Source: Actinomycetota bacterium
GTDB taxonomy: Bacteria > Actinomycetota > Actinomycetes > Mycobacteriales > Mycobacteriaceae
DNA length: 54,180 bases
Direction: 5' to 3'
Assembly: GCA_018268465.1 (NCBI GenBank)
Contig: JAFDWN010000069.1
Location: forward strand, 1 to 54,180
Positions within the stretch are counted from its first letter, which is position 1; each line of letters starts with the position of its first letter. The position numbers and the translations under genes were made by a program. The notes below the pieces were generated by a model that saw nothing but the letters and a program-made list of their open reading frames with translations, was not told the DNA's origin and did no database searches. Below are positions 34,627 to 50,453 of this stretch, one piece after another.

Positions 34627-34861
34627 TCTTTCTCCTACCTGTGATGACCGTTGCGAGTGGTGGTGCAGCGACCCCAGAACCGGCGGGCCCGTGGACGGCC
34701 GAGTCGGATCGTGTCGCCATGGGTGAGCAGGGATCTCTCGGCAGGTGAACGACGGGACGACCGGCGTCACCGGCATGTGTCATCGTGCCCCTCGTCGCGG
34801 TCCCCGGCCCGGGCAACCACTGTGCGCCACCCGGCAATCCTTCGTCTTGACAATTCTGGAC

Positions 34862-35884
34862 ATGTTCTTGACTCTCATGGACATGCAGATGATCCGCGGA
34901 TCGTCGCTGACGGGGTTCGCGCCGCTGGCCGCCGCGCACGGCGGTGACCCTGCAGCGCTGCTGGCGTCATCCGGCATCAACCTCGACGACATCGGTCAGC
35001 ACGACCGATACATCCCGCTGCGCAATGCGATCGCCGCGCTCGAAGACACCGCAGCGGTGCTGGACGTTGCTGACTTCGGGCGCCAGCTCGCTCAGCGCCA
35101 GAGCATCGATATCCTCGGTCCCGTCGCGGTGGCCGCCCGCACCGCCGCCACCGTCGCCGAGGCGTTCGCCGTCCTCGACACCTACATGAACTCCCACAGT
35201 CCAGGTATCACCGCGCGCATCACCACCCATGCCGAGCCGGCACTGCGGCGATTCGAATACGACTTCCTACTGCAGCCGTCACCCCCGCAGACCCAGGCCG
35301 TCGAACTCGCGCTCGGCCTCACCCTGCAGGTGCTGCACCTGTTCCTGGGTACCGCCTACCGGCCGGTGGTCGTGCATCTGCCGCATTCGGCGTTGGGAAC
35401 CAAGTCCGACTACCGCCGCTATTTCGGCTGTACGCCCCACTTCAACGAGGTGATTGCCGGATTCACTTTGCGCACCAACGATTTACAGCGTCCACTCAAC
35501 CACGATCCGCTGGCCCACGAGCTCGCACTCAGCTACCTGTCAGACACCCATGGTCAGCGCACCCACAACGTCGCCGCCGCCGTGTACAGCGTGGTGCGTC
35601 AACTCCTGCCGACCGGAGAACTCAGCGCCGAGCGGGTCGCTCGCCAGTTCGGGATCCACCCCAAGACGCTGCAGCGGCGCCTGCGCGCCGAGAACACGAC
35701 GTTCGTCGAACTGGTCGACGGAACCCGCCGTGAACTCGCCCACCGCTTGCTTCTGGATACCGACCTGCCCCTGGCCCAGATATGCCGCCAGCTTGGCTAT
35801 GCCGAACACAGCGTGTTCACCCGCGCCTGCAAACGCTGGTTCGGCAGGACTCCCAGTGCCTACCGCAAAACCGCCGCCCACTAG
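34862..35884 (+). CDS. AraC-family regulator, OruR/ArgR-like layout
   Basis: A 340-residue regulator with an N-terminal ligand domain of the Arabinose_bd (PF12625) type (GFAPLAAAHGGDPAALLASSGI, then NAIAALEDTAAVLDVADFGRQLAQRQ) and a C-terminal AraC double helix-turn-helix (LSAERVARQFGIHPKTLQRRL, then LAQICRQLGYAEHSVFTRACKRWFGRTPSAYR). Close ATG codons at 34862, 34877 and 34883 leave the start open by a few residues. It is divergent from the DUF1254 gene across 235 bp, the probable target, and convergent with the sugar operon end. Confidence 0.85.
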   Translation: MFLTLMDMQMIRGSSLTGFAPLAAAHGGDPAALLASSGINLDDIGQHDRYIPLRNAIAALEDTAAVLDVADFGRQLAQRQSIDILGPVAVAARTAATVAEAFAVLDTYMNSHSPGITARITTHAEPALRRFEYDFLLQPSPPQTQAVELALGLTLQVLHLFLGTAYRPVVVHLPHSALGTKSDYRRYFGCTPHFNEVIAGFTLRTNDLQRPLNHDPLAHELALSYLSDTHGQRTHNVAAAVYSVVRQLLPTGELSAERVARQFGIHPKTLQRRLRAENTTFVELVDGTRRELAHRLLLDTDLPLAQICRQLGYAEHSVFTRACKRWFGRTPSAYRKTAAH

Positions 35885-35967: not shown

Positions 35968-36951
35968 TCACCCGCCGACGCACGCCGACGCGGGCTCCAG
36001 CACCGACAGGATGGCGTCCACGGCACCCTCCCCTGCGCGTGCCACGCTCTCCTGCGTGAATCCCCCGATATGCGGGGTAGCGATCACCTTCTCGTGCACG
36101 ACCAGCCTCAAATCGGTCGGCGGCTCACTGGCGAAGGCGTCGATTGCGTAGGCGCTCAGCTGATTTCGGTCCAACGCGTGCAGCACAGCACGATCGTCGA
36201 CCAGTTCGGCGCGCGCGGTGTTCACCAGGACCGCGCCGGGCCGCACCAACGCGAGGCGGGCGGAGTCCAGCAACGGACGATCCCCGGGCGGGGCATGCAG
36301 CGAAAGCACATCCGCGTCGGCGAGCACCCGCTCCAGTGATGCCCACTCGAAGCGCGCCGGCGCAGTCCACTCCGCGTCGGGAAATGCATCGTAGCCAACC
36401 ACATTCATTCCGATACCGGCCGCCATGGCCGCCAGCCGGCGGCCGATCTGGCCCACCCCGACGATGCCCATGGTGCGACCGGCCAGTTCCAGACCCGTCG
36501 ACCGCGACCATTCGCCGCCCTTCAGCCGCGCATCCGACCACGGGATCCGTCGCACGCCCGCGAAGGCAAGCGCCAGCGCCAGTTCCGCCACCCCCTGGGA
36601 GTTCGCACCCACGGCGGGCAACACCCGGATGCCCCGCTCCCCCGCCGCGGCGAGGTCGACATTGTTGAGCCCCACACCGTTTCGGGCGATCACCCGTAGA
36701 TCGGGTGCGCCGCGCAATACCTCGGCGGTGATCGGCTCCACCCCGGCCAGATAGCCGACACATCCGGGCAGCTCGGCGAGCAGCTCCCCGACGGTCGGAG
36801 TGCGCCCCGGCGCGGGAAAGACCAACTCGAACCCGTGCCGTTGCAGGCGCTCCAGCGCCGGGTGCCGGCCCGTGGAGAGCGAACGCGGCGTGACCGCCAC
36901 CCTCCGGCGGGAGAGTGGCGGCACCGCCGCGCCCGGAGCTAGCCCGCCCAT
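35968..36951 (-). CDS. D-2-hydroxyacid dehydrogenase (phosphoglycerate dehydrogenase-like)
   Basis: A 327-residue NAD-dependent dehydrogenase. The Rossmann motif is GIVGVGQIG at 162-170, with substrate loop IARNGVGLNNVDLAAAGERGI. The catalytic set is R247 (NTARAELVDD), E276 and H294 (PHIGGFT). It resembles the SerA/glyoxylate reductase group without the ACT domain. It is the last gene of the 12-gene operon, overlapping the cupin isomerase gene by 13 bases if ATG 36951 is the start; GTG at 36900 is an alternative closer to the fold. A likely job is interconversion of a 2-oxo and 2-hydroxy acid intermediate; the substrate is unknown. Confidence 0.85.
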   Translation of the reverse strand: MGGLAPGAAVPPLSRRRVAVTPRSLSTGRHPALERLQRHGFELVFPAPGRTPTVGELLAELPGCVGYLAGVEPITAEVLRGAPDLRVIARNGVGLNNVDLAAAGERGIRVLPAVGANSQGVAELALALAFAGVRRIPWSDARLKGGEWSRSTGLELAGRTMGIVGVGQIGRRLAAMAAGIGMNVVGYDAFPDAEWTAPARFEWASLERVLADADVLSLHAPPGDRPLLDSARLALVRPGAVLVNTARAELVDDRAVLHALDRNQLSAYAIDAFASEPPTDLRLVVHEKVIATPHIGGFTQESVARAGEGAVDAILSVLEPASACVGG

Positions 36952-37529
36952 TTCGGGTTGTCCACGAAAGTCGGTCGCCCGTCGACGTCGACGCAGAGCT
37001 TGCGGAAACCCTTCTCCTCGATCGTCCCGTAGTCGTGACCGGCGTGGCCGGGGAACCCGAAGAAGGTGATCAGCGGCTCGGTGCTGCTGGTGTTGATGCT
37101 CCTGTGCGCGTAACGCCGCGGCACATACACGGCCTGGCCGGGGACGAACTGCGCCCACTGCACGTCACCCTCGGGGTTCTCCATCAGCATGTACCCCTCG
37201 CCGGAGAGGCAGAAGTAGATCTCACCGGTATCGAGGACGGTGTGGAAGTGCCCCTTGGTCATGAAGTACTCGTCGCCGACCGTTCCGGGGTAGACGATGC
37301 TCGTGCCGTAGGCGACATCGCCGGAAGTCTCCGGGACGCCCATGTCGTAGAACTCGTAGACCAGCACATCCTCGCGGCGCAGTTGCGCCGCGGCCGCCTC
37401 GGTGTCGGCGTACATATCCGCCATCGCCGACAGAGTGCGGCGCAGCGGGTCGCGTGCCGACGAAAGGCCCGTGCGCAGGTCGAACGGGGTGACCGTCGCG
37501 GCGACGGTGGTGGGAGCGGAGGTGGTCAT
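36939..37529 (-). CDS. Cupin-type glucose-6-phosphate isomerase
   Basis: A 196-residue cupin of the archaeal-type phosphoglucose isomerase family (PF06560). Metal ligands are visible as H94 and H96 (KGHFH), E103 (TGEIYF) and H142 (RRYAHRS), the same pattern and spacing as the archaeal enzyme. The product segment YGTSIVYPGTVGDEYFMTKG is also typical. Such enzymes interconvert aldose- and ketose-6-phosphates. Mycobacteria use the unrelated Pgi for central metabolism, so this copy probably handles a pathway-specific sugar phosphate. It starts one base after the shikimate-dehydrogenase-like gene. Confidence 0.86.
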   Translation of the reverse strand: MTTSAPTTVAATVTPFDLRTGLSSARDPLRRTLSAMADMYADTEAAAAQLRREDVLVYEFYDMGVPETSGDVAYGTSIVYPGTVGDEYFMTKGHFHTVLDTGEIYFCLSGEGYMLMENPEGDVQWAQFVPGQAVYVPRRYAHRSINTSSTEPLITFFGFPGHAGHDYGTIEEKGFRKLCVDVDGRPTFVDNPKWAG

Positions 37530-37530
37530 G

Positions 37531-38496
37531 TCAGCCCTTCTGTGTGGTTGTTGTGCGTGCGATATCGGCGAGCTGGTCGAATTCGGGTCCTGCCGTGGGG
37601 ATTTCGATGTCGAAGACGTCGCTGATCACCCGGGTCCAGCCGTGGATGAAGTAGACCCAGCCGTCCTCGACACGGACGCCGCGTTGCGCGCGGGCCTGGT
37701 CCAGGAACACGAGATCACCCCGGTAGTTGAAGTCCCACGCGATCGCCCCCGGCGGGAACACCGCCGCGTCGGTGAGCGGCGAACCCGGCCGATCCTTGCC
37801 GAGTCCGGTGGCGTTGACGACGACCGAATCCGGCGGCAGATCGGCGAGTCGGCGGTCATTGTCGGCCGGGGCGGGGGAGTGCACGTAGTCGATCTTCAGC
37901 GCGGAGGCCAGCCCGTCGTGGATGGACCGCATCTCGTCGAGGCGATGCGGGCGCCGGTTGGTGACCACAATCCGGTCGGGCACGTCGCCGCCGCGCTGTT
38001 GACGCTGATGCAGGTAGAGCGTCAGCGCCAGCGACGAGCCGCCCGCCCCGAGCAGCAACAGCTCGCCGCCGTCAGCCCAGTATCCCTCTGGCACAATAGC
38101 TTCCAGGGACAGGCCGCTGGTGATCGGATCCATGGCCTGCCCGCGCAGCCGGGGGCCCCGCTTGGCGATGCTGCTGACCTCGTCGAGCAATGCCGCGGAG
38201 TCTCCGACCTCGTCGAACAGATCCCGGGCGGCTTTGAACAGGTTGAGTTTGTGCGTCGTGACGAGGGCACCGCGGGACAGCGGATCGTCCTTGATGAAGG
38301 ACACCACGTCGCGGTAGACGGCCGGTTCGGCGTCCAGCGGCAAGTCGATACCGGTGATGTCGGCGTCGATGCCCAGATGCCGTGCCCAGGCGGGAAACAC
38401 CTTCATGATCGACGACGCGCCGGTCGTGACACCGATGAAATACATCGTCGGCCGCAGCGCCGGCGGCGGCATATGGGCAGCAAGGGGTAGGGACAT
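37531..38496 (-). CDS. Shikimate dehydrogenase-like oxidoreductase
   Basis: A 321-residue protein with the shikimate/quinate dehydrogenase layout: an N-terminal substrate domain, K83 in GALVTTHK (catalytic Lys position), D123 in GQAMDPITSG (catalytic Asp position) and a Rossmann motif LLLGAGGSSLAL at 147-158. The usual SxS shikimate-binding motif near residue 20 is not recognisable (TTGASSIMKVFPAW instead). The catalytic pair is thus kept while the substrate pocket differs, so it likely acts on a different polyol or cyclitol-like acid. The start at 38496 has GGAG upstream. It lies in the middle of the sugar operon. Confidence 0.72.
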   Translation of the reverse strand: MSLPLAAHMPPPALRPTMYFIGVTTGASSIMKVFPAWARHLGIDADITGIDLPLDAEPAVYRDVVSFIKDDPLSRGALVTTHKLNLFKAARDLFDEVGDSAALLDEVSSIAKRGPRLRGQAMDPITSGLSLEAIVPEGYWADGGELLLLGAGGSSLALTLYLHQRQQRGGDVPDRIVVTNRRPHRLDEMRSIHDGLASALKIDYVHSPAPADNDRRLADLPPDSVVVNATGLGKDRPGSPLTDAAVFPPGAIAWDFNYRGDLVFLDQARAQRGVRVEDGWVYFIHGWTRVISDVFDIEIPTAGPEFDQLADIARTTTTQKG

Positions 38497-38544
38497 GACT
38501 GTGCTCCAATGGGTTTCGAGATGATGTGGGCGGCCGGGACGGCG

Positions 38545-40044
38545 TCAGTGCTCTTCCCAGTCGCGGGCCCGGCCGACGGCCTTCTGCCAGCCCGCGTACA
38601 TGGCGGTGCGGGTCTCGCTGGGCATATCCGGGGTGAAGGTGCGCTCGACGCGGTAGGTGGCGGCCAGCTCGGCGCGGTCCTTCCAGTAGCCGGTGGCCAG
38701 CCCGGCCAGGTAGGCCGCACCACGCGCCGTCGTCTCGACCACGGTGGGTCGCGCCACGCGGACGTCGAGCAGATCCGACTGCAGCTGCATGAGGAAGTTG
38801 TTGCGTGCGGCGCCGCCGTCGGCGCGAATCTCACTGGCCGCGATGCCCGAATCGTCCTGCATCAGGCTGATGACGTCGCAGATCTGGTAGCAGATCGCCT
38901 CGAGCGCCGCCCTGATGATGTGGTTGCGGTTGACGCCGCGGGTCAGCCCGACGATCGCGCCCCGGGCATACGGATCCCAGTACGGTGCCGCCAACCCGAC
39001 GAACGCCGGGACGAAGTACACACCGTTGGAGTCGGGCACCCGCTGCGCCGCGAACTCGGTGTCGTCGGCGTCGTAGACGATCTTGAGTTCGTCACGCAGC
39101 CACTGCACCGTCGCTCCGGATACGAAAATCAAACCCTCCAGCGCATATTCGACCTTTCCGTCCAGCCCCCAGGCCGGGATGGTCAGCAGGCCGCTGGTGG
39201 AGTGCACGGGGACAGCGCCGGTGTTCATCACCAGGCTGGCACCCGTGCCGTAGGTGGTCTTCACCATGCCCGGCTCGAAACACGCCTGCCCGAACAGCGC
39301 CGCATGCTGGTCCCCGATGGCCGACGCGATGGGGATCTGGGCTTCGATGAAGATGTCGCGGCAGGTGTGGCCGTAGATCTCGCTGCTCTGGTGCACCTCC
39401 GGCAGCAACGCGGCGGGGATGTTGAGTTCCTTGAGCATGCGTTCGTCCCACACGAGACGGTGGATGTCGAAGAGCAGTGTGCGCGAGGCGTTGGTGTAGT
39501 CGGTGACGTGCACCCGCCCGCCGGTGAGATTCCAGATCAGCCAGCTGTCGACGGTGCCGAACGCGAGTTCACCGCGTTCGGCACGCTCCCGCACCCCGGG
39601 AATGTTGTCGAGAATCCAGGCCAGTTTGGTACCCGAGAAGTAGGCGTCGATGAGCAGGCCCGTGGTGGCGCGGACATGTTCCTCCAGCCCGGCCGCTTTC
39701 AACTGGTCGCAGAACGCCGCGGTCCTGCGGTCCTGCCACACAATGGCATTCGTGACGGGCACCCCGGTGGCGCGGTCCCACACGATCGTCGTCTCACGCT
39801 GATTGGTCACGCCGATCGCCGCGACGTCGCGGGCGGACAGCCCCGCCCGCGCCAATGCCTCCTTGGCGACGGTCACCTGCGTGTTCCAGATGTCGAGGGG
39901 ATTGTGTTCGACCCACCCCGCCTGCGGGTAGATCTGCGGGAACTCCTGCGCGGCCTCGACGACGACCTGACCGTCGTGGTCGAACAGAATCGCGCGGATG
40001 CTCGTGGTCCCTGCGTCGAGGGCCATGACGACACTGTCACTCAT
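38545..40044 (-). CDS. glpK: Glycerol kinase
   Basis: A 499-residue FGGY kinase of the glycerol kinase group. D10 opens the phosphate 1 motif ([15 protein letters not shown]), and all glycerol contacts of the E. coli enzyme occur at the same residue numbers: R83 and E84 (NQRETT), W103, Y135, D245 and Q246 ([13 protein letters not shown]). The enzyme transfers phosphate from ATP to glycerol, or a close triose or polyol. The GlpK-like identity is strong, which is unusual in an operon with an ABC sugar importer. It overlaps the upstream zinc dehydrogenase by four bases (ATGA). I infer that glycerol or a glyceraldehyde-derived polyol is an intermediate. Confidence 0.92.
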
Positions 40045-41114
40045 TGCCTCGGTCCTTCCTCGGTGGCGCCGCCGGCGAAGGTGATCATCGCCTTCATCCC
40101 CGCGCCGCTGGAGGCGTGGTCCATCGCCTCGTCGATGCGTTCGATGTCGAAGGTGCGGCTGACGAACCGGCCCAAGTCCACTCGGCCGTCGGCGACGAGG
40201 GCCAGCGCTCGGTCGTAATCGGCGTTGCTGCTGCCGGTGGTGCCGGTCAGGACCAACCCGCGGTAGTGCACGCGGTTGGTGTCGATGTCCACCGCGCCGC
40301 CCCGGCCCAGTCCGGAGAAGAAGTTCAGCCGCCCATGGGTGGCCAGCATCTCGACCGCCTGGGTTTGCACCGCGGGATCGGAGACACAGGTGACGACGAC
40401 GTCGGCGCCGCGGCCGCCGGTGTGCTCCCGCACCACGTCGGCGAGGTCGGCGTCGGTGGTCAGCACGGTGACGTCCGCGCCGGCCTCCCGGGCCCGGCGC
40501 AGCCGTTGCGGCGAGCGGTTGGCGACGATCACCGCCGCCGCCCCCGACAGCTTGGCCAGCAGGGTGTGGAAGATCCCGATGGGTCCGGCCCCGACGATCA
40601 CCACGACGTCGTCACGCCCGACGCCGAGCACGCTCTGCCCCCGCAGGCAGCAGGAGAACGGTTCGACGAGGGCGGCTTCTTCGAAGGTGACTCCGTCGGG
40701 GAGGCGGAATACGTTGCCGCGCTGCACCGCGAAGCCCGGCACCCGCAGATACTCCTGGAACCCACCGTCCAGGGTGATGCCGAACGCCTCGTAGTCGGCG
40801 CACATGTTGTTCAGCCCCTGACGGCAGAACCGGCAGTGCCCGCATCCGATGTTCGGTGTGATCGACACCCGGTCACCGACAGTGAAATCGCGGACCGCCG
40901 CGCCCACTTCGACGACGACACCGGCGGTTTCGTGGCCCAGTACCCGGCGTTGCCCGTCGGGCAGTTTGAAGTGCCCGTACGTGGCGATGCGCAGGTCGGT
41001 GCCGCAGATGGACGCGGCGCGCACCGCCACCAGCAGGTCCTCGGGCCCGATCGCGGGAACCGGTACGTCGTCGACCTTGACGACTCCGGGCCCGTGGAAC
41101 ACCGCGGCTTTCAT
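40041..41114 (-). CDS. Zinc-containing alcohol/polyol dehydrogenase, full metal sites
   Basis: A 357-residue medium-chain dehydrogenase. Catalytic zinc ligands are C37 and H61-E62 ([14 protein letters not shown]), and the structural zinc set C91, C94, C97, C105 is complete ([16 protein letters not shown]). The coenzyme fold follows with GAGPIGIFH. It falls in the sorbitol/threonine/xylitol dehydrogenase-like part of the family. ATGA overlaps join it to both neighbours, the GatD-like gene upstream and glpK downstream. It probably oxidises or reduces a polyol intermediate; the substrate is not determined. Confidence 0.85.
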
Positions 41115-42217
41115 CGGCCGGCCCCGACCGTGGACGGCGCGTCGCTCGAGGCGTCCCGCAACTCGCCGCGCGCCTCCGCGGAAACGGCGAAGACGACCTT
41201 GTTGGACCACAGGCGCTTCCCGGCGATGTCTGCCATGAGCTGTGGAGCCTCCTCCAACCCGCGCAGGTGACTGATCAACGGCGCGACCGCCAGGGTGCCC
41301 CGGGCGATGTGTTCCACCACCATGTCCCATTCACTGCGGCCCGACGGAGTGATTCGCGAGTTCCAGGTCCCGATGATGACGAGTTCACGGCGGATGAACG
41401 ACGAGATCGACGCCCGCGGGATGGTCACGTCGGCTTTCAGATCGCCCAGCACGAGCACCTGGCCCTGCGGTGCGGCCACATCCAGGCACTGCAGGAACGC
41501 CGACGGAAAACCGGTGGCCTCGACAGCGGCGTCGACACCGCGCCCGTCCGTGCGGCCCCGCACCGCGGCGACCGCGTCCTGCGCCGCGGCGTCGATCACC
41601 TCGAATCCCAACTCGGCCATCACGTCGAGCTTGCGGGGGTCGACGTCGGCGACCAGTACCCGCGTCCAGCCCAGGATCCGCAGCCACTGCGCGGCCAACG
41701 CCCCGATCGGTCCCGCACCGAGTACCACCACACTGCCCGCCGACGGCACCCGTAGCTTCTGCACGGCGTGCAGGGCGACCGCGGCCGGTTCGACCATGGC
41801 GGCGTGCGCCAACGGCATGGTGGCCGGTACCGCGACCAGGTTCGCCTCGGGCACCCACAGTCGCTCGGCCATCGCCCCGTCGCGGCGGGAGCCGAAGTAG
41901 TCGTAGCCCTCCGACAGCGCCCATTCGCCGACCCCGGTGAGGGGGTCGTCGCAGCGGGGGAGGAGCGGAAACACCGCCGCCCGGTCACCGGGCGCGAATG
42001 GTGAACCCTCCGGCGCCGTTTCGACCACCGCGGAGAACTCGTGGCCCAGGATCAGCGGGTAGTGGTAGGCGGTGTGGTGCGCGAACCGCAGCACGTCGGA
42101 TCCGCACACCCCGACGCTGCCCACCTGCACCAGCACCGGCCGTTCACCGAACGGCGCCGGGTCGGGGACGTCTTTGTACACCAGGGTGTCGTTGGCTTCC
42201 AGGACTGCCGCTTTCAT
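41111..42217 (-). CDS. GatD-like medium-chain dehydrogenase lacking structural zinc site
   Basis: A 368-residue medium-chain dehydrogenase resembling galactitol-1-phosphate 5-dehydrogenase: HYHYPLILGHEFSAVVE-type segment with H59-E60, C38 as catalytic ligand, YDYFGSRRDGAMAE at about 105-118 and GAGPIGALAAQ. In the region where the four structural cysteines should be (84-105) only C89 remains, so the structural zinc is probably absent. A polyol-phosphate or polyol is the likely substrate. It follows the SDR gene by three bases and overlaps the next dehydrogenase by four. Confidence 0.82.
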   Translation of the reverse strand: MKAAVLEANDTLVYKDVPDPAPFGERPVLVQVGSVGVCGSDVLRFAHHTAYHYPLILGHEFSAVVETAPEGSPFAPGDRAAVFPLLPRCDDPLTGVGEWALSEGYDYFGSRRDGAMAERLWVPEANLVAVPATMPLAHAAMVEPAAVALHAVQKLRVPSAGSVVVLGAGPIGALAAQWLRILGWTRVLVADVDPRKLDVMAELGFEVIDAAAQDAVAAVRGRTDGRGVDAAVEATGFPSAFLQCLDVAAPQGQVLVLGDLKADVTIPRASISSFIRRELVIIGTWNSRITPSGRSEWDMVVEHIARGTLAVAPLISHLRGLEEAPQLMADIAGKRLWSNKVVFAVSAEARGELRDASSDAPSTVGAGR

Positions 42218-42220
42218 CGG

Positions 42221-43072
42221 TCAGACCTCCATGCCGTAGCGATGGGCTTTGTGGGTGGGGTACAGCGAGATGGTGGGCACGGTGACGTCGGGGGTGCGGG
42301 TGGCGACCCACAGCGTGGCTTCGGCGACATTGGAGACGTCGATGCAGCTGGCGTAGATGCCCTCGGCCATCTCCTTTTCGTCCAGCCATCCGTCGGTGTA
42401 GGCCGGCAGGTCCTCGTCGTAGAGGCCCTTGTCGATGATCTCGGTCATCGGGGTGGCGACGTGGGAGGGGTTGATGACGGTCACGCCGATGTTCTTCTCC
42501 TTGCCCTCCAGCAGGATGTTCTTGCTGAAGCCGAGCATCCCGTGTTTGGAGGCGCGGTAGGGGCTGTGCCCGGGCCCGGAGGCCACCCGTGTCGAGGACG
42601 AGCCCATGTTCATGATGCGGCCACCGCCGGGCTGGGTGGACATGATCCGGAACGCCTCCCGGCAGCTGAGGAATACGGCGGTGAGGTTGGGGCCGATAGT
42701 CTTGTTCCACTCCTCGAGCGTCACGTCGACGACCGGAGGGGACAGGGAGTCCCGGCCGGCGCTGTTGACCACGAGGTCGACCGAGCCCCACGTTTCGCGG
42801 GCGGATGCGAAGAAGTCGATCACCGATTGCTCGTCGGTGACGTCGGCGACGTGCGCCTCGGCGGTCCAGCCGCGCGAAACGATCTCGTCGACAACGGTTT
42901 TCAGACGTTCGGCGTCGATATCGACCACCAGGACCTTGGCCTGGTTGGCGGCGAAAGTGCGGCTGACGGCTTCGCCGATGCCCGAAGCGCCGCCGGTGAC
43001 GATGGCGACCTTGCCGGCCAGGGCGGTGCCCGGCTGCGGCATATAGTTCGGGGTGAAGGTGGGGGTGCTCAT
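42221..43072 (-). CDS. Short-chain dehydrogenase/reductase
   Basis: A 283-residue classical SDR. The cofactor motif is TGGASGIG at 26-33 with acidic D51 after the second strand (VVDID), which favours NAD over NADP. Catalytic residues are S158-S160 (NMGSSSTR), Y172 and K176 (YRASK). Ends in a tail of about 40 residues (YPTHKAHRYGMEV). Start ATG 43072 has GAGGAAG four bases upstream. It lies 25 bp after the aldolase gene and is expected to oxidise a sugar or polyol intermediate. Confidence 0.87.
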   Translation of the reverse strand: MSTPTFTPNYMPQPGTALAGKVAIVTGGASGIGEAVSRTFAANQAKVLVVDIDAERLKTVVDEIVSRGWTAEAHVADVTDEQSVIDFFASARETWGSVDLVVNSAGRDSLSPPVVDVTLEEWNKTIGPNLTAVFLSCREAFRIMSTQPGGGRIMNMGSSSTRVASGPGHSPYRASKHGMLGFSKNILLEGKEKNIGVTVINPSHVATPMTEIIDKGLYDEDLPAYTDGWLDEKEMAEGIYASCIDVSNVAEATLWVATRTPDVTVPTISLYPTHKAHRYGMEV

Positions 43073-43097
43073 GGGTCTTCCTCTCACAGTGGGTTTT

Positions 43098-43736
43098 TCA
43101 CGAAGTGGTCGCGCTGGTTGGGGCGCCGAGGGCGGTCGCCCTGGCGGCGCGTTCGGCGATGGTGTCGAATCGTCCCGCGGCGATGTCGGCGGCGGGGGCG
43201 ATCCACGTCCCGCCGACGGCCGCCACATTGGGTTGGGCCAGCCAATCAGGCGCGGTGGCCGCGGTGATCCCGCCGGTCGGCATGAACGACACCTCTCGGT
43301 ACGGGCCGCCCAGCGCGGTGAGCATGGGCAGACCGCCGCTGGCGACCGCCGGGAAGAATTTGAGCAGGGTCAGCCCGCTGGCCAGGCCCTGCTCGACCCC
43401 GGTGGGGGAGTTCACGCCCGGGATCACCGCAATGCCGTGCTCGAGACAGCGATCCACCACCGCCTGGTTGAATCCGGGCGTCACCACGAACGCCGCACCG
43501 GCGGACACCGCCGCATCCACCGTGGCCGCTGTCAGGACCGTCCCGGCGCCGACGAGCACGTCGGGGCAATGGGTGCGCAGTTCGTCGATGGCCGCCGCGG
43601 CCGCGTCGGTCCGGAAGGTCACCTCGACGACGGGCAGCCCACCGCGGCGCAACGCCGCGCCGAGCGGGGCGGCCGACGCGGGGTCCTCGATCTGGACGAC
43701 GGGCACGACTTTCAGGTTCTGCAGCGTCTGCTTCAT
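43098..43736 (-). CDS. KDPG/KHG aldolase family protein
   Basis: A 212-residue class I aldolase of the 2-keto-3-deoxy-6-phosphogluconate / 4-hydroxy-2-oxoglutarate family. E38 (VVEVTFRT), R42 and the Schiff-base lysine K126 (LLKFFPA) are present, along with the GAGTVL loop, PTGGI at 153-157 and GGTWIAP. The reaction is cleavage of a 2-keto-3-deoxy acid to pyruvate and an aldehyde or aldehyde phosphate. Whether the substrate is phosphorylated cannot be read from these motifs. It overlaps the UlaG-like gene by four bases (ATGA). Confidence 0.9.
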   Translation of the reverse strand: MKQTLQNLKVVPVVQIEDPASAAPLGAALRRGGLPVVEVTFRTDAAAAAIDELRTHCPDVLVGAGTVLTAATVDAAVSAGAAFVVTPGFNQAVVDRCLEHGIAVIPGVNSPTGVEQGLASGLTLLKFFPAVASGGLPMLTALGGPYREVSFMPTGGITAATAPDWLAQPNVAAVGGTWIAPAADIAAGRFDTIAERAARATALGAPTSATTS

Positions 43737-44641
43737 GCGTGCCCTCCGACCAGCTCGAATCCGGCGCCGACGGCGGGCACGGTCCAACTGAGATGTGCGG
43801 GCGCGTCCCGCAGTGCGGCGATCGCCGCGGCGGGTGCGACCGTGTTGAAGTCGAAGAGCCCGAAGTGGTGGCACAGCAGCGCCGGAATGGCGGCGGCGCT
43901 GCACAATTCGACCGCTTCGTGCACGGTGAAGTTGCCCGGCACGCCGTTGGCCAGCCGGTCACGGTCACGGCCGTTGATCGGCAGCAGCGCGACGTCGATG
44001 CCCAGCCCGGCGAGCAGTTCGGCCTGCCCCGGATAGGGCACGCAGTCACCCGAGTGGTACAGCCGTACGGTGCCGGTGTCGACGACGTAGCCCAGGAAAT
44101 GGTGGGCCCCGTCGGCGTCGCGGGTCAGCTGCTCGTGGGCGGCGGGTACCGCGGTGACGGTGAACGGACCGATCCGGACCTCCTCGCCGGCGTCGAGGCC
44201 GCTGAGCAGTCCCGTGGGGATACCGCGGTCCAGCGCAATGGCGGACCGCGCCCGCGGTGCCACGAACTGCGGGCGGTTGGACCGCAGCACCGCCTCGATC
44301 GTCCACGGGTCCATGTGGTCGGTGTGGGCGTGGGTATGCAGCACTCCCACAACGGAATTCAGCTCTCCGGCCGATACCGGGGCCGGGTGCAGCCGCCGGT
44401 GCGGGAACCGCGCTCCTGCGTACTTCGCGGCCAAACTGTCCGAGAGGTACGGGTCGATGAGCAGCACGTCCGCACCGTGGCGCAGCGCGAATCCGGCCTG
44501 GCCGAGCCACCACAGCCGGGTCGCACCGTCGACGGTACCGGTGACCAGATCCTCGATGGTCAGCGCGGCGTCGTAGTGCACGGGAAAGGGGCCGAATCCG
44601 GGTCCCTGCGCCACGGCGGTCGGCACGAGGGCCGCGGTCAC
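43733..44641 (-). CDS. UlaG-like metallo-beta-lactamase-fold hydrolase
   Basis: A 302-residue metallo-beta-lactamase-fold protein. The metal motif HxHxDH is at 104-109 (THAHTDHMD), followed by H169, D199 (YHSGDC) and H258-H259 (LCHHFGLFD). The layout matches the UlaG (L-ascorbate-6-phosphate lactonase) branch, so a lactone or lactone phosphate is the expected substrate. The start is GTG at 44641, overlapping the ABC ATPase stop by four bases (GTGA). In this operon it may open a lactone formed by one of the dehydrogenases. Confidence 0.82.
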   Translation of the reverse strand: MTAALVPTAVAQGPGFGPFPVHYDAALTIEDLVTGTVDGATRLWWLGQAGFALRHGADVLLIDPYLSDSLAAKYAGARFPHRRLHPAPVSAGELNSVVGVLHTHAHTDHMDPWTIEAVLRSNRPQFVAPRARSAIALDRGIPTGLLSGLDAGEEVRIGPFTVTAVPAAHEQLTRDADGAHHFLGYVVDTGTVRLYHSGDCVPYPGQAELLAGLGIDVALLPINGRDRDRLANGVPGNFTVHEAVELCSAAAIPALLCHHFGLFDFNTVAPAAAIAALRDAPAHLSWTVPAVGAGFELVGGHA

Positions 44642-45456
44642 GCCGTCACCGCCGGAAGGCGCACCGGCGCGTCGGAGAGATGGTCGGCGCCGGGGGCCAC
44701 CGCGCCGGTCATCAACGCGACGGCGTCGGGCATGGTGAGTTGTGACGTCGGCACGCACGCGATGCGACGACCCAGGCGCTGCACGTGGATTCGGTCGGAC
44801 ACCTCGAAGACGTGGGGCATGTCGTGGCTGATGAGGATGACGGGGATACCGCGGTCGCGGATCTGGGCGATCAGCTCGAGGACCTTGCCGGATTCCTTGA
44901 CGCCCAGCGCGGCGGTCGGTTCGTCCATGATGATGACGCGGCTGCCGAATGCCGCGGCACGGGCGACCGCCACGGCCTGGCGCTGTCCGCCGGACAGGGT
45001 TTCGACGGTCTGGCCCAGATTCTGGATCGTCGCCAGGCCCAGTTCTTCGAGCAGACTGCGGGCACGGTCGCGCATGGCCCGCCGGTCGAGCAGACGCAAC
45101 ACGCTGCCCCGCAGCCCGGGTTTGCGGATCTCCCTGCCCATGAACAGGTTTGCGCTGATATCGCGGGCGGGGGAGACGGCGAGATGCTGGTAGACGGTTT
45201 CGATACCGGCGGTGCGCGCGTCGATGGGTGAGCGCATGCTCACCGGTGCGCCGCCGACCCGGATGGTGCCCTCGTCGGGTACGACCGCCCCGGACAGGCA
45301 TTTGATGAGGGTGGATTTCCCGGCGCCGTTGTCGCCGATGACGGCCAGCACCTCACCGGGGTGCAGCACCAGGTCGGCGCCGGCCAGCGCGGTCACGTGA
45401 CCGTAGCGCTTGACCAATCCGCGGGCGTCCAGGGCGGGGGTGTGTGCGGTGGTCAT
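44638..45456 (-). CDS. frcA: FrcA-like sugar ABC transporter ATPase
   Basis: A 272-residue single-domain ABC ATPase: Walker A GDNGAGKST at 41-49, signature LSGGQRQ at 154-160, Walker B VIIMDEP (D178, E179) and switch H in ILISHDM. Sugar ATPases of the RbsA type have two fused domains; the single domain is the FrcA type and would form a homodimer. It energises the importer with the permease (upstream, ATGA overlap) and the binding protein. The symbol is by similarity of the whole FrcBCA set. Confidence 0.85.
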   Translation of the reverse strand: MTTAHTPALDARGLVKRYGHVTALAGADLVLHPGEVLAVIGDNGAGKSTLIKCLSGAVVPDEGTIRVGGAPVSMRSPIDARTAGIETVYQHLAVSPARDISANLFMGREIRKPGLRGSVLRLLDRRAMRDRARSLLEELGLATIQNLGQTVETLSGGQRQAVAVARAAAFGSRVIIMDEPTAALGVKESGKVLELIAQIRDRGIPVILISHDMPHVFEVSDRIHVQRLGRRIACVPTSQLTMPDAVALMTGAVAPGADHLSDAPVRLPAVTA

Positions 45457-46502
45457 CCTGCGACTCTCCTTGTCCACTGATCGAGTCCGACGGCGACGAT
45501 GACGAGCACGCCGACGGTGAAGGTCTGCCAGAGCACGTCGACCCCGGCCAGGGTCAGTCCGTTGCTGAAGACTCCGACGATGAGGGCGCCCAGCAGGGTC
45601 CCGACGACGTGACCGCGCCCGCCGAAGAGGCTGGTGCCGCCGATCACGACGGCGGTGATGCTGGTCAGGTTGGCTCCCTCGCCGGAGAACGGGCTGATCG
45701 ATCCGACCCGGCCGATGAGGAACCAGCCGGCCACCGCGCACACCAGCCCCGCCGTCGCGTACACGCTGAGCAGGACGCGGGAGGTGCGAATTCCGCTGAG
45801 CCGGGCGCCTTCCGGGTTGTCGCCGACCATGTAGACGTGCTCACCCCAGGCCGTGCGGCGCAGCACGATCGCCGCCGCGATCACGGTGAGCACCATCAGG
45901 ACGCTGCCGTAGGTGATGCGTGCACCGGCCACCGTGAAGGTCTGGCCCGGCCAGAGCAGCAGCCCGGGCAGATCCTGGCCGCGGATGGTCTGGCTGCCCG
46001 AGAGCCAGACGGTCAGGGCGGTGAAGACGCTCAGCGTGCCGAGTGTGGTGATGAACGGCGGGATCCGGAATCGCGACACCAGCGCGCCGTTGAGAAGCCC
46101 GCAGAGCAGACCGGTGAGGAAGGCCAGCACCAGCGCGACGACGGCGGGCAGGCCGTGCTCGGTGGCGAGTTTGCCTGCCACCACCGTGGACAGCACCATG
46201 ATCGCCGCCACCGACAGGTCGATCCCCGCGGTCAGCACGATGAGGGTTTGGGCGACACCGAGCATCCCGACGATCTGGACCTGCTGCAGGATGAGCGACA
46301 CATTGCCGGGGAGCAGGAACGCCGGGCCGACGATCGCGGTGAAGACCAGCACGGCCGCGACCAGAACCGCGGTCGGGCCGAGCAGCGGCCTGCTGTGCAG
46401 TTGACGCTGGATTCGGGTGGCCAGGGGCAGTGCGGCGGTGTCGGCGAGTGGGTCGCCGACCCGGCGGGGTTTGAGCGCGGTGGCGCTGTTGTCTGGTGAC
46501 AC
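45453..46502 (-). CDS. frcC: FrcC-like sugar ABC transporter permease
   Basis: A 349-residue permease of the ribose/fructose/xylose (RbsC) type with about eight to ten hydrophobic segments. Typical stretches are VGMLGVAQTLIVLTAGIDLSVAA and the late GGTSLFGGRGHVVGTLLGAL. The start is GTG at 46502, with AGGAG seven bases upstream. It lies 35 bp after the binding-protein gene and overlaps the ATPase gene by four bases. It forms the membrane channel of the operon's importer. Confidence 0.88.
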   Translation of the reverse strand: MSPDNSATALKPRRVGDPLADTAALPLATRIQRQLHSRPLLGPTAVLVAAVLVFTAIVGPAFLLPGNVSLILQQVQIVGMLGVAQTLIVLTAGIDLSVAAIMVLSTVVAGKLATEHGLPAVVALVLAFLTGLLCGLLNGALVSRFRIPPFITTLGTLSVFTALTVWLSGSQTIRGQDLPGLLLWPGQTFTVAGARITYGSVLMVLTVIAAAIVLRRTAWGEHVYMVGDNPEGARLSGIRTSRVLLSVYATAGLVCAVAGWFLIGRVGSISPFSGEGANLTSITAVVIGGTSLFGGRGHVVGTLLGALIVGVFSNGLTLAGVDVLWQTFTVGVLVIVAVGLDQWTRRVAG

Positions 46503-46537
46503 GGCTGTACTCCTTGGTGGGATGTCGCGGGTGCTGC

Positions 46538-47602
46538 TCAGCCCCAGCAGTTTTCGAGTCCCCAGGCGGAGTCCTTGGATTCCACGCCTGCGACGGGCTG
46601 ATCGGTGATGAGGGTGACGCCGGTGTTGGTGAAATCGCGGCCAGGGGTGTTCTGCGCCGTGGCGCCGGAGTCGAGGTAGGCCTTCGCGGCTTCCAGCGCC
46701 TCGGTGGCCATCTGGATGGGGAACTGCATGGAGGTGGCGCCGATGATTCCGGCCTGCACGTTCTGCACACCGGGGCAGCCGCCGTCGATCGAGACGATCG
46801 TCACCTGGTCTTGCAGATCGGCGGCCTTGATCGCTTCGTAGGCGCCGGCGGCGGCCGGTTCGTTGATGGTGTAGACGAGGTTGATTCCCTTGTCACGCTG
46901 TAGGAGTTTCTCCATCGCGGTGCGGCCGCCCTCCTCGTTGGCGTCGGTGACCTCGTGGCCGACGATCCGGGCGTCCTGCTCGTCGCCGATGGTGTCGACA
47001 TCCTTGACGTCGATGCCGAAGCCCTGCAGGAATCCCTGGTTGCGCTCGACGTCGACGGCCACCTGGGCGGGGCTCAAGTCGAGCATGGCGATCCGGGCCT
47101 GCTTCCCCTCGAACTTCTTGGCCGCCCATTCGCCGATCAGCTGGCCGGCCTGGAAGTTGTCGGTGGCGAACGTCGCGTCGGCGGCACTGGTCGGATTGGT
47201 GGGTGAGTCCAGCACGGCCACGAAAACCCCGGCCTGGCGCGCGTTTTCGATCGCGGGAATGATGGCCTCGGAGTCCGACGGCGCGATGAGGATGGCCTTG
47301 GCGCCCCTGGCCACCAGGTTCTCGATCGCCTGGACCTGGGAGTCGTTGTCGCTCTGACTCTTTCCTGCCAGTGACTGCAGCGTGAAGCCCAGTTCGTCGG
47401 CCTTCTGCTGGGCGCCGTCACGCATCTTGACGTAGAACGGGTTGTCCTCGGTCTTGGTGACCAGCCCGACCAGCACCCCCGAGGACTGGTTACCCGCGGC
47501 GTTGCTGCCACTGCAGGCCGTCATCCCGAGGGCCAGACACACCGCGCCGCCGGCGGCGAGGACACGCCGCAGGGCGGGTGTTGAAAGACGGTTGCCTGAC
47601 AT
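46538..47602 (-). CDS. frcB: FrcB-like sugar-binding lipoprotein
   Basis: A 354-residue periplasmic-binding-protein-I-type lipoprotein. The signal peptide ends at lipidation site C30 (LALGMTAC). The mature part resembles rhizobial FrcB throughout: LVTKTEDNPFYVKMRDGAQ, ADATFATDNFQAGQLIGEWAA, GDEQDARIVGHEVTDANEEGG, INEPAAAGAYEAI and the C-terminal W-G end. FrcB binds fructose, mannose or ribose; relatives bind polyols, so the ligand is open. Start ATG 47602 follows GGAGG. It is the first gene of the operon, downstream of the operator-like repeats. Confidence 0.9.
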   Translation of the reverse strand: MSGNRLSTPALRRVLAAGGAVCLALGMTACSGSNAAGNQSSGVLVGLVTKTEDNPFYVKMRDGAQQKADELGFTLQSLAGKSQSDNDSQVQAIENLVARGAKAILIAPSDSEAIIPAIENARQAGVFVAVLDSPTNPTSAADATFATDNFQAGQLIGEWAAKKFEGKQARIAMLDLSPAQVAVDVERNQGFLQGFGIDVKDVDTIGDEQDARIVGHEVTDANEEGGRTAMEKLLQRDKGINLVYTINEPAAAGAYEAIKAADLQDQVTIVSIDGGCPGVQNVQAGIIGATSMQFPIQMATEALEAAKAYLDSGATAQNTPGRDFTNTGVTLITDQPVAGVESKDSAWGLENCWG

Positions 47603-47625
47603 GGAAGACCTCCAACGGCGTTGAT

Positions 47626-47637
47626 GGAAATTGTTTC
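47626..47637. promoter_or_regulatory. Operator-like half site 1 (degenerate)
   Basis: GGAAATTGTTTC, 10 of 12 matches to GGAAATTACTTC in site 2, located 24 bp upstream of the frcB start codon on its leader side. Probably a weaker regulator site. Confidence 0.45.
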
Positions 47638-47659
47638 GATCTGCTGTTCTGAGTGTGGC

Positions 47660-47672
47660 GGAAATTACTTCC
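47660..47672. promoter_or_regulatory. Operator-like site 2
   Basis: GGAAATTACTTCC in the frcB/rpiR gap. Its reverse complement, minus one base, recurs at 47691, so the pair forms an inverted repeat. Proposed site for the RpiR-type regulator. Confidence 0.6.
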
Positions 47673-47690
47673 GATGTCCAGGGGTGATGT

Positions 47691-47702
47691 GGAAGTAATT
47701 TC
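47691..47702. promoter_or_regulatory. Operator-like site 3
   Basis: GGAAGTAATTTC, exact reverse complement of GAAATTACTTCC in site 2, 18 bp away. AT-rich in a GC-rich gap and midway between the divergent frcB and rpiR genes. Confidence 0.6.
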
Positions 47703-47771
47703 TATCGACTATCGTCGTGATGACAACGGCGCTGGTAGACGGCGCCGCCCGGGGATGACGGGAGCGACGCC

Positions 47772-48665
47772 ATGACCGTCCACGAGGACGTCAACGTCCT
47801 GCAGCGCATCGCCAGCCGGCTGCCCTACCTGCCCGGCGCGCTGCGCCAGGTCGGCGACTACGTGCTGGCGAATCCCGAAGCGATGCAGTCCATGAGCATC
47901 ACGTCGCTGGCCGCATCGGTCGGCGTGGCCGACTCGACGGTGTCGCGGTTCGTCCGCGAAATCGGCCTGGACGGCTACCAGGCGCTGCGTCTGGCGACCG
48001 CCGAGGCGGTGTTCGCCAACCGGGCCACCGGTGCTGTCCGGCCCCAGGCCTTCGTCTACGAGGGCATCACGCGGGCCGACGGACCCGAGGAGGTGGTGGC
48101 CAAGATCCGCTACAGCAGCGAGCTGGCCCTGGCGCAGACCGCCGAGCGCCTCGACGTGCACGCACTGGCGAAGGGGGTCGACGCGATCAGCCGGGCCACC
48201 ACGATCGTGTTCACCTGCATGGGATCGTCGAGCATCGCCGCTGAGGAGGGTGTCATGCGGTTCACGCGAGCGGGTAAGAAGTGCATGCTCTTTCGGGATC
48301 AGAGCATCCAGGCCATGGCGTCGACCATCGTGGGCAGTCAGGACGTCGTCATCGCGGTGAGCGACTCCGGGCGATCCACCCTGGTGGTCGACATGGTCAC
48401 GACGGCGCGGGCGCACGGCGCGGCCACCGTCGCCATCACCTCCGATCCCGCCAGCCCGCTGTCCAAGACCGCGGAGGTGAGCCTGTTCACCTCCTCGGTC
48501 CCGTCAGGGGGCGCGTTGTACGGAGAATCGGTGACCAGCAAGTGGGGACAGCTGCTGGTGATGGATTCGCTGTACGCCGCCTACGCGGCGACGCATTTCG
48601 ACGAGACCGTCGCTCATCTGGAGCAGACCTACGCCGCGGGCATCCAGCGGTCGCGGGAGGTGTGA
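47772..48665 (+). CDS. MurR/RpiR-family sugar-phosphate regulator
   Basis: A 297-residue regulator. The N-terminal RpiR helix-turn-helix spans about 5-80 (RQVGDYVLANPEAMQSMSIT, then LAASVGVADSTVSRFVREIG). A SIS sugar-phosphate domain follows at about 120-265 (ATTIVFTCMGSSSIAAEEGV, DVVIAVSDSGRSTLVVDMV). It is divergent from the 12-gene operon and the gap holds the operator-like repeats, so it very likely controls frcB and itself. The inducer is expected to be a sugar phosphate from the pathway. It ends 22 bp from the convergent AAA ATPase gene. Confidence 0.9.
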   Translation: MTVHEDVNVLQRIASRLPYLPGALRQVGDYVLANPEAMQSMSITSLAASVGVADSTVSRFVREIGLDGYQALRLATAEAVFANRATGAVRPQAFVYEGITRADGPEEVVAKIRYSSELALAQTAERLDVHALAKGVDAISRATTIVFTCMGSSSIAAEEGVMRFTRAGKKCMLFRDQSIQAMASTIVGSQDVVIAVSDSGRSTLVVDMVTTARAHGAATVAITSDPASPLSKTAEVSLFTSSVPSGGALYGESVTSKWGQLLVMDSLYAAYAATHFDETVAHLEQTYAAGIQRSREV

Positions 48666-48686: not shown

Positions 48687-50075
48687 CTACAGGTACATCC
48701 CTTCCGGTGCGGTGGCGCGGTAGCGGCCGCTGCCCACCTCGGCCAGCAGCGCCGCCGTGCTCAGGCTCCCATCGTCGGCGGTGAGGACGGCGCGGCGCAC
48801 GATTTCCCGCAGGTCGCTACCACTGGTCTGCTCGGGCAGACCCGCGGCCACCGCCGCGGCATTCACGTCGGCGCCGCCGGGCAGCCCGGCGACGAGGGTG
48901 GCCAGGATGCGGGCGGCATCGATACGGCTGGGATAGCCGACCTCGACGATCGCATCGAACCGCCCCGTGCGTATCGCGGCCTTGTCCAGGGTGGCCACAT
49001 CGTTGGTGGAGGCCAACGTCAGGATGCGGGAATCGGCGGCAATATCCATGGCCTGCAACAACTCCGACAGCCCGCCCCCGCCGCCGCGGCGCTCCCCGCA
49101 CCAGAGGTCGACATCTTCGAGGATAAGGAGGACGGGCCCGCCGAGGCGTTGGGCTTCCTCGACGACGGCGGTCAACAACTCCGCGCCCGCCTTGGCTTCG
49201 ACGTAGATGACGGTGAACACACCGACGACCTCGCTGGCGATGGCCGCGCAGACCGCCGACTTCCCGGTACCCGGCGGCCCGCACAGCAGCACGCCACGTC
49301 GCGCACCCAGCCCGTGGGCGTTGAGCAGTTCGTGCCGATCGCGCACCGCGGCCAGGCCGAGGTCGATCTCGCGCCACACCTGCGCGTCGACGACCACGGT
49401 GTCCCGGGTCAACGTCGTGGGCAGTTCGATCACCCCCACGGCCAGTCCATCGGTGTAGGTCGCGCGGACCGCCCGGCCGCGGTACGGGTTGAGATCGTCG
49501 GCACGTGCGGCCAGCCGGTCCAGCACATCGCGGGCGCTGTTGTGATGCTCCCGGGTGACGGAGACGCTGACTTCTGCGAAACGCATGCCGGTTTCCCGCG
49601 TTTCGATCCCGATCACACACCCGACATCGGCCAGCAGCGTTCCCGCCGGAAAGTGCACTTGCAGGCACTGCGGATGCCGATAGAGCCGGCCACCGATCTC
49701 GGTTTGGGTCCACCGCGGCGGCTGCGAGTGTTCAGCCGGGCCGACCTCCACCTTGTCGGCGTGGGCGTCGATCCATTCGGCCAGTGCGACCGCCGTGGTC
49801 AACCGCGACATCGGATTCAGCTCCCGGTCCTCATCGAGTAGATGCGCGCGGTCGGCGACTCCGAGGCAGCGGGTGGTGAACCGGCCGGCGGTCTCGGCCC
49901 GCTCCGGCCGCTCAGCGACACCGACCAGCAGTTCCCCGAGCGCGCGCAGCCCCGAGCGCACGTCGCCATCAAGAGCATCGAAGTAGGCCGCCACATCGGT
50001 GATATGTCGGCGCACACCGGCTCCGCCGGCGGCGTGGGTCGGCGGATCGGTCAGTTCATAGTCAGTGAGAGTCAT
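48687..50075 (-). CDS. Classic AAA ATPase with unknown N-terminal domain
   Basis: A 462-residue protein. Residues 1-245 have no recognised family; they contain a helical part and a strand-rich part (GIETRETGMRFAEVSVSV). Residues 258-455 are a Cdc48/FtsH-type AAA domain: Walker A GPPGTGKS at 266-273, Walker B LILEDVD with E320-D321 (the usual order is D-E), sensor and arginine region STNDVATLDKAAIRTGRFD. ATG 50075 is chosen; an upstream TTG at 50105 is possible and neither has a clear ribosome site. It is convergent with rpiR and next to the mobile element. Function unknown; remodelling or unfolding is implied by the fold only. Confidence 0.75.
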   Translation of the reverse strand: MTLTDYELTDPPTHAAGGAGVRRHITDVAAYFDALDGDVRSGLRALGELLVGVAERPERAETAGRFTTRCLGVADRAHLLDEDRELNPMSRLTTAVALAEWIDAHADKVEVGPAEHSQPPRWTQTEIGGRLYRHPQCLQVHFPAGTLLADVGCVIGIETRETGMRFAEVSVSVTREHHNSARDVLDRLAARADDLNPYRGRAVRATYTDGLAVGVIELPTTLTRDTVVVDAQVWREIDLGLAAVRDRHELLNAHGLGARRGVLLCGPPGTGKSAVCAAIASEVVGVFTVIYVEAKAGAELLTAVVEEAQRLGGPVLLILEDVDLWCGERRGGGGGLSELLQAMDIAADSRILTLASTNDVATLDKAAIRTGRFDAIVEVGYPSRIDAARILATLVAGLPGGADVNAAAVAAGLPEQTSGSDLREIVRRAVLTADDGSLSTAALLAEVGSGRYRATAPEGMYL

Positions 50076-50453
50076 CGCAGCAAGGGGGTCGTCGGGTTTG
50101 GGCAACCGATCAGCTTGTCAGCTGAACCCCACGACGGCAATCCTTTTTCCTGAGCGTGCCGGCCGCGGTAGCCGTCTTAGTTGATCGGTCACCTGTTCCG
50201 ACACGGGCACTTCCCGACCCAGCGGCGTCGCAGCACAGATCTCAGCGGCTGGTCAAGGTCTGTCTCGTCGTGACGCCTGAGCGAACTCGTCGGCACATCG
50301 CCGATTTCCGGGCAACCCAACGATTCCCACCCAAAAGACAAAAGTCACGAACCCCGAGGAGTCCGTGACTTCTATGTCTGCGGTTGCGTAGAACCGCTCT
50401 CTGTCTGTGTGAGGTTCATTCTGGCTCGTCAGACCCGGTGACCGAGCAAGTCG

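Follow-up and report, generated by a model that had tools for sequence, protein, structure and literature searches.

A mycobacterial carbohydrate operon of unrecognised pathway built around a five-enzyme core

Organisation of the operon

The DNA considered here is a stretch of 54,180 nucleotides from a 6.9-Mb mycobacterial genome (assembly GCA_018268465.1, contig JAFDWN010000069.1, our contig C65), hereafter called the window. Its minus strand carries a run of twelve genes (35968-47602), headed by a sugar importer and lying next to a gene for a regulator of the RpiR family. A first-pass annotation, made from the sequence alone, had called this run a carbohydrate operon of unrecognised pathway. 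This description is supported by the co-conservation of the genes across phyla, by an operator-like motif shared with some related loci, by the lack of a literature match and by the presence of an Entner-Doudoroff-type aldolase without a dehydratase gene in nearly every cluster. Its probable function is to take up and degrade a rare sugar alcohol or ketose. Among the papers listed from open-licence full text, none describes the gene set or offers an exact match to a characterised pathway; subscription or unlisted papers may contain a description.

Pfam and NCBIfam matches give the same gene order as the first-pass annotation (Table 1), and the tight packing that it had described is recovered from start-to-stop distances, with intergenic spacing of at most 48 bp throughout and five 4-bp overlaps (ATGA four times, GTGA once). 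From frcB onwards, and depending on the gene starts chosen, the gaps are 35 bp (frcB-frcC), -4 (frcC-frcA), -4 (frcA to the metallo-beta-lactamase (MBL) gene), -4 (MBL-aldolase), 25 (aldolase to the short-chain dehydrogenase/reductase (SDR) gene), 3 (SDR to the first medium-chain dehydrogenase/reductase (MDR) gene), -4 (MDR-MDR), -4 (second MDR-kinase), 48 (kinase-AroE-like), 1 (AroE-like-cupin) and 38 bp between the cupin glucose-6-phosphate isomerase (GPI) gene and that of the phosphoglycerate dehydrogenase (PGDH)-like enzyme (14 bp with the PGDH start at 36924). The rpiR gene is indeed divergent, on the plus strand and 169 bp from frcB. A terminator scan 3' of the last gene found none and is not used as evidence.

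Table 1. Coordinates of the operon, its regulator and the region between them
Feature	Coordinates	Strand	Evidence
RpiR-family regulator (HTH_6 + SIS), divergent	47772..48665	+	Pfam PF01418, PF01380
rpiR/frcB intergenic region, three operator-like GAAATTNNTTYC sites	47603..47771	.	motif search
CUT2 sugar-binding protein ('frcB')	46538..47602	-	PF13407 169.3 bits; best named model RbsB, below cut-off
ABC permease, BPD_transp_2 ('frcC')	45453..46502	-	PF02653
ABC ATPase ('frcA')	44638..45456	-	PF00005; start set by ATGA overlap
MBL-fold metallo-hydrolase, putative sugar-phosphate lactonase (core)	43733..44641	-	PF12706
KDPG-type aldolase (core)	43098..43736	-	PF01081 213.7 bits
SDR dehydrogenase, putative polyol/sugar oxidation	42221..43072	-	PF00106
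Zn-dependent MDR dehydrogenase, GatD-like	41111..42217	-	NCBIfam PRK10309 199.8 bits, cut-off 550
Zn-dependent MDR dehydrogenase, IolM/Tdh-like	40041..41114	-	NCBIfam IolM 216.8 bits, cut-off 450
FGGY kinase, GlpK family, Ser at position 270	38545..40044	-	GlpK models, residue comparison
AroE-like dehydrogenase (core), putative sugar-phosphate dehydrogenase	37531..38496	-	
Cupin phosphoglucose-isomerase family protein (core)	36939..37529	-	PF06560 96.5 bits
PGDH-like 2-hydroxyacid dehydrogenase (core)	35968..36900, start 36900 or 36924	-	PF02826, PF00389; TIGR01327 216.3 bits, cut-off 454

Conservation of the gene set

The gene-neighbourhood comparison proposed in the first-pass annotation was carried out by scanning a species-genome collection with the AroE-like protein, which gave 175 relatives, of which the best 80 loci were kept. 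Co-occurrence was counted within 10.5 kb of the AroE-like gene; since 15 of the 80 loci have a flank shorter than 5 kb, some absences are contig ends. Judged from the record titles, the AroE-like protein is present in eight phyla (Pseudomonadota, Actinomycetota, Planctomycetota, Spirochaetota, Verrucomicrobiota, Armatimonadota, Hydrogenedentota and Nitrospirota), many of the loci belonging to metagenome bins, and the closest relatives of the window's protein are found in Mycolicibacterium. It is accompanied by the cupin isomerase at 74/80 loci, the MBL metallo-hydrolase at 65/80, the PGDH-like enzyme at 64/80 and the aldolase, of the type that cleaves 2-keto-3-deoxy-6-phosphogluconate (KDPG), at 50/80. 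All five core genes stand together at 47 of the 80 loci (44 of 65 when both flanks must measure 5 kb or more), and these 47 span six phyla: Actinomycetota, Pseudomonadota, Spirochaetota, Planctomycetota, Hydrogenedentota and Verrucomicrobiota.

The complement of all twelve gene types is found at 12/80 loci, with importer genes merely 27-37% identical in L010, L011 and L028. Gene order is kept in eight loci from four actinobacterial genera (L002, L003, L004, L006, L007, L012, L014 and L015), blurred reading-frame starts obscuring in L006 the order of the two alcohol dehydrogenase genes and that of the GPI and PGDH genes. Importer, kinase and polyol dehydrogenases differ between clades. In the divergent rhizobial layout, importer, FGGY kinase, HAD phosphatase, SDR and glycerol-dehydrogenase-like genes run in one direction, and cupin, aldolase, AroE-like, PGDH-like, MBL and RpiR genes in the other; in some Spirochaetota and Planctomycetota, the core is preceded by genes for an IolG-like Gfo/Idh protein, an IolM-like dehydrogenase and a xylulokinase-like FGGY kinase. 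The twelve-gene system of the first-pass annotation is therefore co-conserved as a gene set, but the conserved unit is smaller, a five-enzyme core whose entry genes are exchanged between clades. Within its own genus the operon is rare, occurring in 2 of 297 genomes drawn, the window's genome counted.

On the AroE-like family itself, the tree comprises 82 rows, namely the 80 loci, the window and a paralogue in the Herbiconiux locus L009. This second, very divergent gene (19414-20334, 51% to the window's) adjoins the sole MBL gene of that locus, at about 20300. The AroE-like protein of L050, on a contig titled Mycobacterium sp. KBS0706, nests on a short branch within Inquilinus limosus, and the genome is possibly mislabelled. 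Clusters of the Shinella/Gemmobacter type (L008, L010, L101) carry one or two extra sugar-phosphate isomerase/epimerase genes; a protein from L048 in the same cluster of sequences resembles psicose epimerase/IolO but scores below both cut-offs.

Regulator and operator-like sites

The sequence GAAATTNNTTYC, with at most one mismatch, has three copies in the whole window (47627-47638, 47661-47672 and 47691-47702; one copy has a mismatch), and all lie inside the 169-bp rpiR/frcB gap, where two of them together form a perfect 12-bp inverted repeat. Chance alone would place about one copy somewhere in the window, and three copies were reached in 12 of 100 shuffles. Copy number alone is thus weak to modest evidence; it is the clustering in this gap that tells. 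The exact 11-base sequence also precedes the binding-protein gene in the related actinobacterial loci L002, L003, L007 and L012, as well as in L014, at positions nearly those of L007; an exact-match search did not find it in L004, L006 and L015. An RpiR relative lies within 10.5 kb at 48/80 loci. Of the eight loci that keep the gene order, two (L002 and L003) have a divergent rpiR; in the other six it is the last gene, on the same strand.

Importer, kinase and entry dehydrogenases

The FrcBCA importer of the first-pass annotation is an ABC importer of the CUT2 family, and 'FrcB' is a name at the level of the fold, the best named model being RbsB at 118.8 bits (cut-off 337). The solved structures offer no close relative of the binding protein, the best being a ribose-type protein at 106.4 bits, and the same applies to the Gemmobacter binding protein (69.3 bits). 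The rhizobial binding protein of L042 is 64% identical to 4ry9, whose ligand is reportedly D-talitol. D-talitol is the same compound as D-altritol, and its oxidation gives D-psicose or D-tagatose (PMC12193009). An Eda-type aldolase would suit the D-psicose branch better than the D-tagatose branch.

The annotated 'true glycerol kinase' passes the curated GlpK model (704.6 bits, cut-off 590.35), but glycerol phosphorylation is probably not its function. Position 270 is a serine where glycerol kinase has Phe270, a residue that presumably lines the glycerol site of GlpK, and Ser, Thr or Ala occupies this position in 22/22 cluster members, window included. The window's genome has four further GlpK-like genes (46-51% identity), and the three that were read all keep Phe270. 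Position 270 and these four genes disfavour glycerol as the substrate, and on residue comparison the kinase probably phosphorylates a larger molecule. The two Zn-dependent dehydrogenases miss the curated cut-offs of galactitol-1-phosphate 5-dehydrogenase (199.8 against 550 bits, GatD-like) and of scyllo-inosose dehydrogenase IolM (216.8 against 450 bits).

Enzymes of the core

The AroE-like protein of the core has the AroE fold by structure prediction, falls short of the curated AroE model (35.1 bits, cut-off 221) and has no Pfam match at E 0.001. The KDPG-type aldolase, the cupin isomerase and the PGDH-like enzyme match their respective Pfam families (Table 1). The UlaG-like lactonase of the first pass is so named at the level of the fold (30.3 bits, cut-off 306); PRK00685 and UlaG were the sole models matched, both under cut-off, and the HxHxDH motif of the hydrolase is conserved across 64 sequences.

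The GPI domain of the cupin, which scores 174.5 bits against the glucose-6-phosphate isomerase 4lta, holds the motifs GHFH and AHR, kept in the window-type cupin cluster (n=23) and presumably part of the metal site of cupin phosphoglucose isomerases. Lys133, Glu45, Arg49 and Thr161 of E. coli Eda are all kept by the window's aldolase; among 41 aldolases compared from the clusters, Lys133, Thr161 and Arg49 are each present in 40-41. Position 48 is Phe in 38/41, where Eda has Leu, and position 184 is Thr in 26/41. Proteins of such clusters are annotated 'shikimate dehydrogenase', 'glucose-6-phosphate isomerase' and 'phosphoglycerate dehydrogenase', and in one cluster 'glycerol kinase'.

The missing dehydratase

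As the first-pass annotation had remarked, the operon contains no dehydratase gene. Among 96 loci (the 80 above, 11 plasmid loci and 5 further genome stretches), an Edd-type protein is encoded at one (Marinovum L103, 18410-20140, beside the core) and a DgoD-type protein at another (L074). UxuA and UxaA were found at none of the 96, the dehydratase seeds coming from E. coli, the window's own genome and Marinovum, and other dehydratase families not being searched. With E. coli Eda or DgoA as query, an aldolase is found at 63/96 loci; with E. coli Zwf, none of the 96 gave a match.

At the genome level, an Edd ortholog (764-835 bits) is present in 4 of the 19 cluster-bearing genomes searched. The window's genome is one of them, its ortholog (803.1 bits) adjoining an Eda on contig C22. 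The other fifteen have none: fourteen give IlvD-like matches of at most 231 bits and G609, a 1.2-Mb assembly, gives no match. They comprise M. komossense, which has the same operon, two Arthrobacter, three Streptomyces and nine metagenome bins. A PF01081 aldolase match over cut-off is found in 19/19, but it is weak in G612, where the cluster (L055) carries no aldolase gene.

A putative pathway and its alternatives

The kinase, the polyol-type dehydrogenases and the L042 binding protein related to 4ry9 point to a hexitol or ketohexose as the substrate class. From chemistry, we infer the following reactions, their order and their substrates. The importer would take up a hexitol or ketohexose, and the SDR and Zn dehydrogenases would oxidise the hexitol to the ketohexose, or act on its phosphate. 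The kinase would then yield a ketohexose-6-phosphate, and RpiR would sense a sugar phosphate and act at the GAAATTNNTTYC sites. In the core, the cupin isomerase would form an aldohexose-6-phosphate, whose pyranose would be oxidised at C1 by the AroE-like enzyme to a 6-phospho-lactone. The MBL hydrolase would open the lactone to a 6-phospho-aldonate, the PGDH-like enzyme would oxidise C2 to give a 2-keto-6-phospho-aldonate, and the aldolase would break the C3-C4 bond, releasing glyceraldehyde-3-phosphate together with a C3 keto acid, which in this scheme would be hydroxypyruvate. No dehydratase would then be needed.

The reading that we tentatively favour, at somewhat less than even chances, is an inducible operon that takes up a hexitol or ketohexose, phosphorylates it and catabolises it through a dehydratase-free core of five steps. 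Its more specific and more doubtful form is an Entner-Doudoroff look-alike, with an AroE-family hexose-6-phosphate dehydrogenase and a KDPG-type aldolase that would split 2-keto-3-hydroxy-6-phospho-hexonate to hydroxypyruvate and glyceraldehyde-3-phosphate. It would be a widespread glycolytic branch that erases the C2-C4 stereocentres of rare sugars and passes many hexitols through one core.

Several observations weigh against the dehydratase-free reading. The binding proteins of the window and of L042 share only 30% identity, so the former may have a different ligand. We know of no KDPG-type aldolase that prefers a 3-hydroxylated 2-keto acid, and the positions of Thr73, Pro94 and Phe135, which presumably have a role in Eda, are the same as in Eda. 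Thirty of the 80 loci have no aldolase inside 10.5 kb (some are cut by contig ends). Of ten genomes searched whose clusters lack one, nine encode an aldolase at another place; of three such sequences read, two belong to the ordinary Eda type and one to the core type; G594, with such a cluster, gave no aldolase match anywhere in the genome. The ordinary Eda-type aldolases suggest that KDPG itself may be the product. A PGDH gene is missing at 16/80 loci, and in the five genomes searched from such loci the best homologues are just 35-38% identical, so that the PGDH step may be dispensable. Finally, a glycerate kinase gene lies near just 1 of the 96 loci, the one that supplied the seed.

The same aldolases elsewhere favour a route to true KDPG by unconventional dehydration, which we consider unlikely. 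The C3-OH would be lost from the product of the AroE-like enzyme, a 6-phospho-lactone or 3-keto intermediate, with help from the PGDH-like protein or the MBL protein; hydrolysis to KDPG and its cleavage to pyruvate and glyceraldehyde-3-phosphate would follow. Apart from positions 48 and 184, the aldolase resembles Eda at the catalytic and phosphate-site positions examined, and this route would use it in its known way. However, the conversion of ketohexose-6-phosphate to KDPG needs one net oxidation and would leave over the second core dehydrogenase, and to our knowledge no sugar-acid dehydratase belongs to these core enzyme families.

Alternatively, the core might yield a 6-phospho-hexonate dehydrated by a housekeeping Edd encoded elsewhere, in ordinary Entner-Doudoroff fashion. 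The Edd ortholog beside Eda in the window's genome agrees with this, as do the ILVD/EDD proteins of 9/9 genomes searched with aldolase- or PGDH-less clusters. The absence of an Edd ortholog from 15 of the 19 cluster-bearing genomes (nine of them metagenome bins) nevertheless makes it improbable, even if the IlvD-like matches might include other ILVD/EDD sugar-acid dehydratases.

Catabolism of a cyclitol with ring cleavage has a similarly poor chance. Here, as with IolG, IolM, IolN and IolO of Thermotoga, the AroE-like and IolM-like enzymes would oxidise the ring and the MBL protein would cleave the diketone. Besides the IolM-like dehydrogenase of the operon (216.8 bits), this idea draws on an IolG-like Gfo/Idh protein cluster present at 10/80 loci (one member scanned, 262.6 bits, cut-off 355) and on the IolO/psicose-epimerase-like protein of some clusters. 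It is countered by the missed IolM cut-off of 450, by an MBL protein matching only the PRK00685 and UlaG models, under cut-off, by the phosphoglucose-isomerase-type cupin of the core and the kinase of most clusters, neither obviously needed, and by the polyol-type dehydrogenases that rhizobial clusters have instead. That two or three unrelated small units are adjacent by chance, as the variation of entry genes between clades might suggest, is very improbable given the overlapping genes, the single promoter region with operator-like sites and the order kept in eight loci of four actinobacterial genera.

Comparison with known systems

The operon resembles a branch of the Entner-Doudoroff pathway (Zwf, Pgl, Edd, Eda) but lacks its defining enzyme, the Edd dehydratase. 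It shares with it the Eda-type aldolase and, presumably, a lactonase-like hydrolase and a dehydrogenase upstream of the aldolase as well as phosphorylated hexose intermediates; it differs by an AroE-like protein in place of Zwf, an MBL-fold hydrolase and the additional PGDH-like enzyme and cupin isomerase. The D-altritol/galactitol catabolism of Agrobacterium tumefaciens, in which tagatose-6-phosphate is reportedly epimerised to fructose-6-phosphate (a finding attributed to Wichelecki et al. in 2015), likewise combines ABC import of a hexitol, dehydrogenation to a ketohexose and a kinase, whereas that route is not known to have an aldolase, AroE-like, PGDH-like or MBL core.

The inositol pathway of Thermotoga maritima consists of IolG, IolM, IolN and IolO. 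An IolM-like dehydrogenase and a hydrolase of metallo-beta-lactamase fold are common to both systems, but the IolM cut-off is missed here and the operon adds a phosphoglucose-isomerase-type cupin, a KDPG aldolase and an FGGY kinase. The AroE fold also occurs in Gluconobacter 5-ketofructose reductase (7cok/7col), whose name refers to a hexose substrate; its identity to the AroE-like protein is 19%. In the sections available of a report on the L-glucose/L-galactose route of Luteolibacter (lgu genes), sugar and sugar-acid dehydrogenases, a D-altronate dehydratase and a 2-keto-3-deoxygluconate kinase lead to KDPG and a KDPG aldolase (PMC12632266). The KDPG aldolase end and the dehydrogenases are shared with the operon; the dehydratase is not, the dehydratase and kinase of that route make phosphorylation late, and these sections mention no AroE-like protein or cupin isomerase (PMC12632266).

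If the dehydratase-free pathway is true, it would be a new funnel of rare hexitols and ketohexoses into central metabolism, its five core genes occurring jointly in six phyla and the AroE-like protein in eight. The AroE-like and KDPG-type aldolase families would then have roles that none of the records read gives them, and cluster proteins now annotated as shikimate dehydrogenase, glucose-6-phosphate isomerase, phosphoglycerate dehydrogenase and glycerol kinase would gain a function.

Neighbouring genes

Convergent with the end of the operon lies a gene for an AraC-type regulator (34745-35884), next to a DUF1254/DUF1214 gene (33214-34776). On the other side, rpiR adjoins an AAA ATPase gene (48687-50105), farther on from which a reading frame of 643 aa (50717-52648) has no Pfam match. 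The minus strand of the window also carries an ESX-type (type VII) secretion set (14625-23704), with a PPE protein, two FtsK/SpoIIIE ATPase genes, EccB and EccA.

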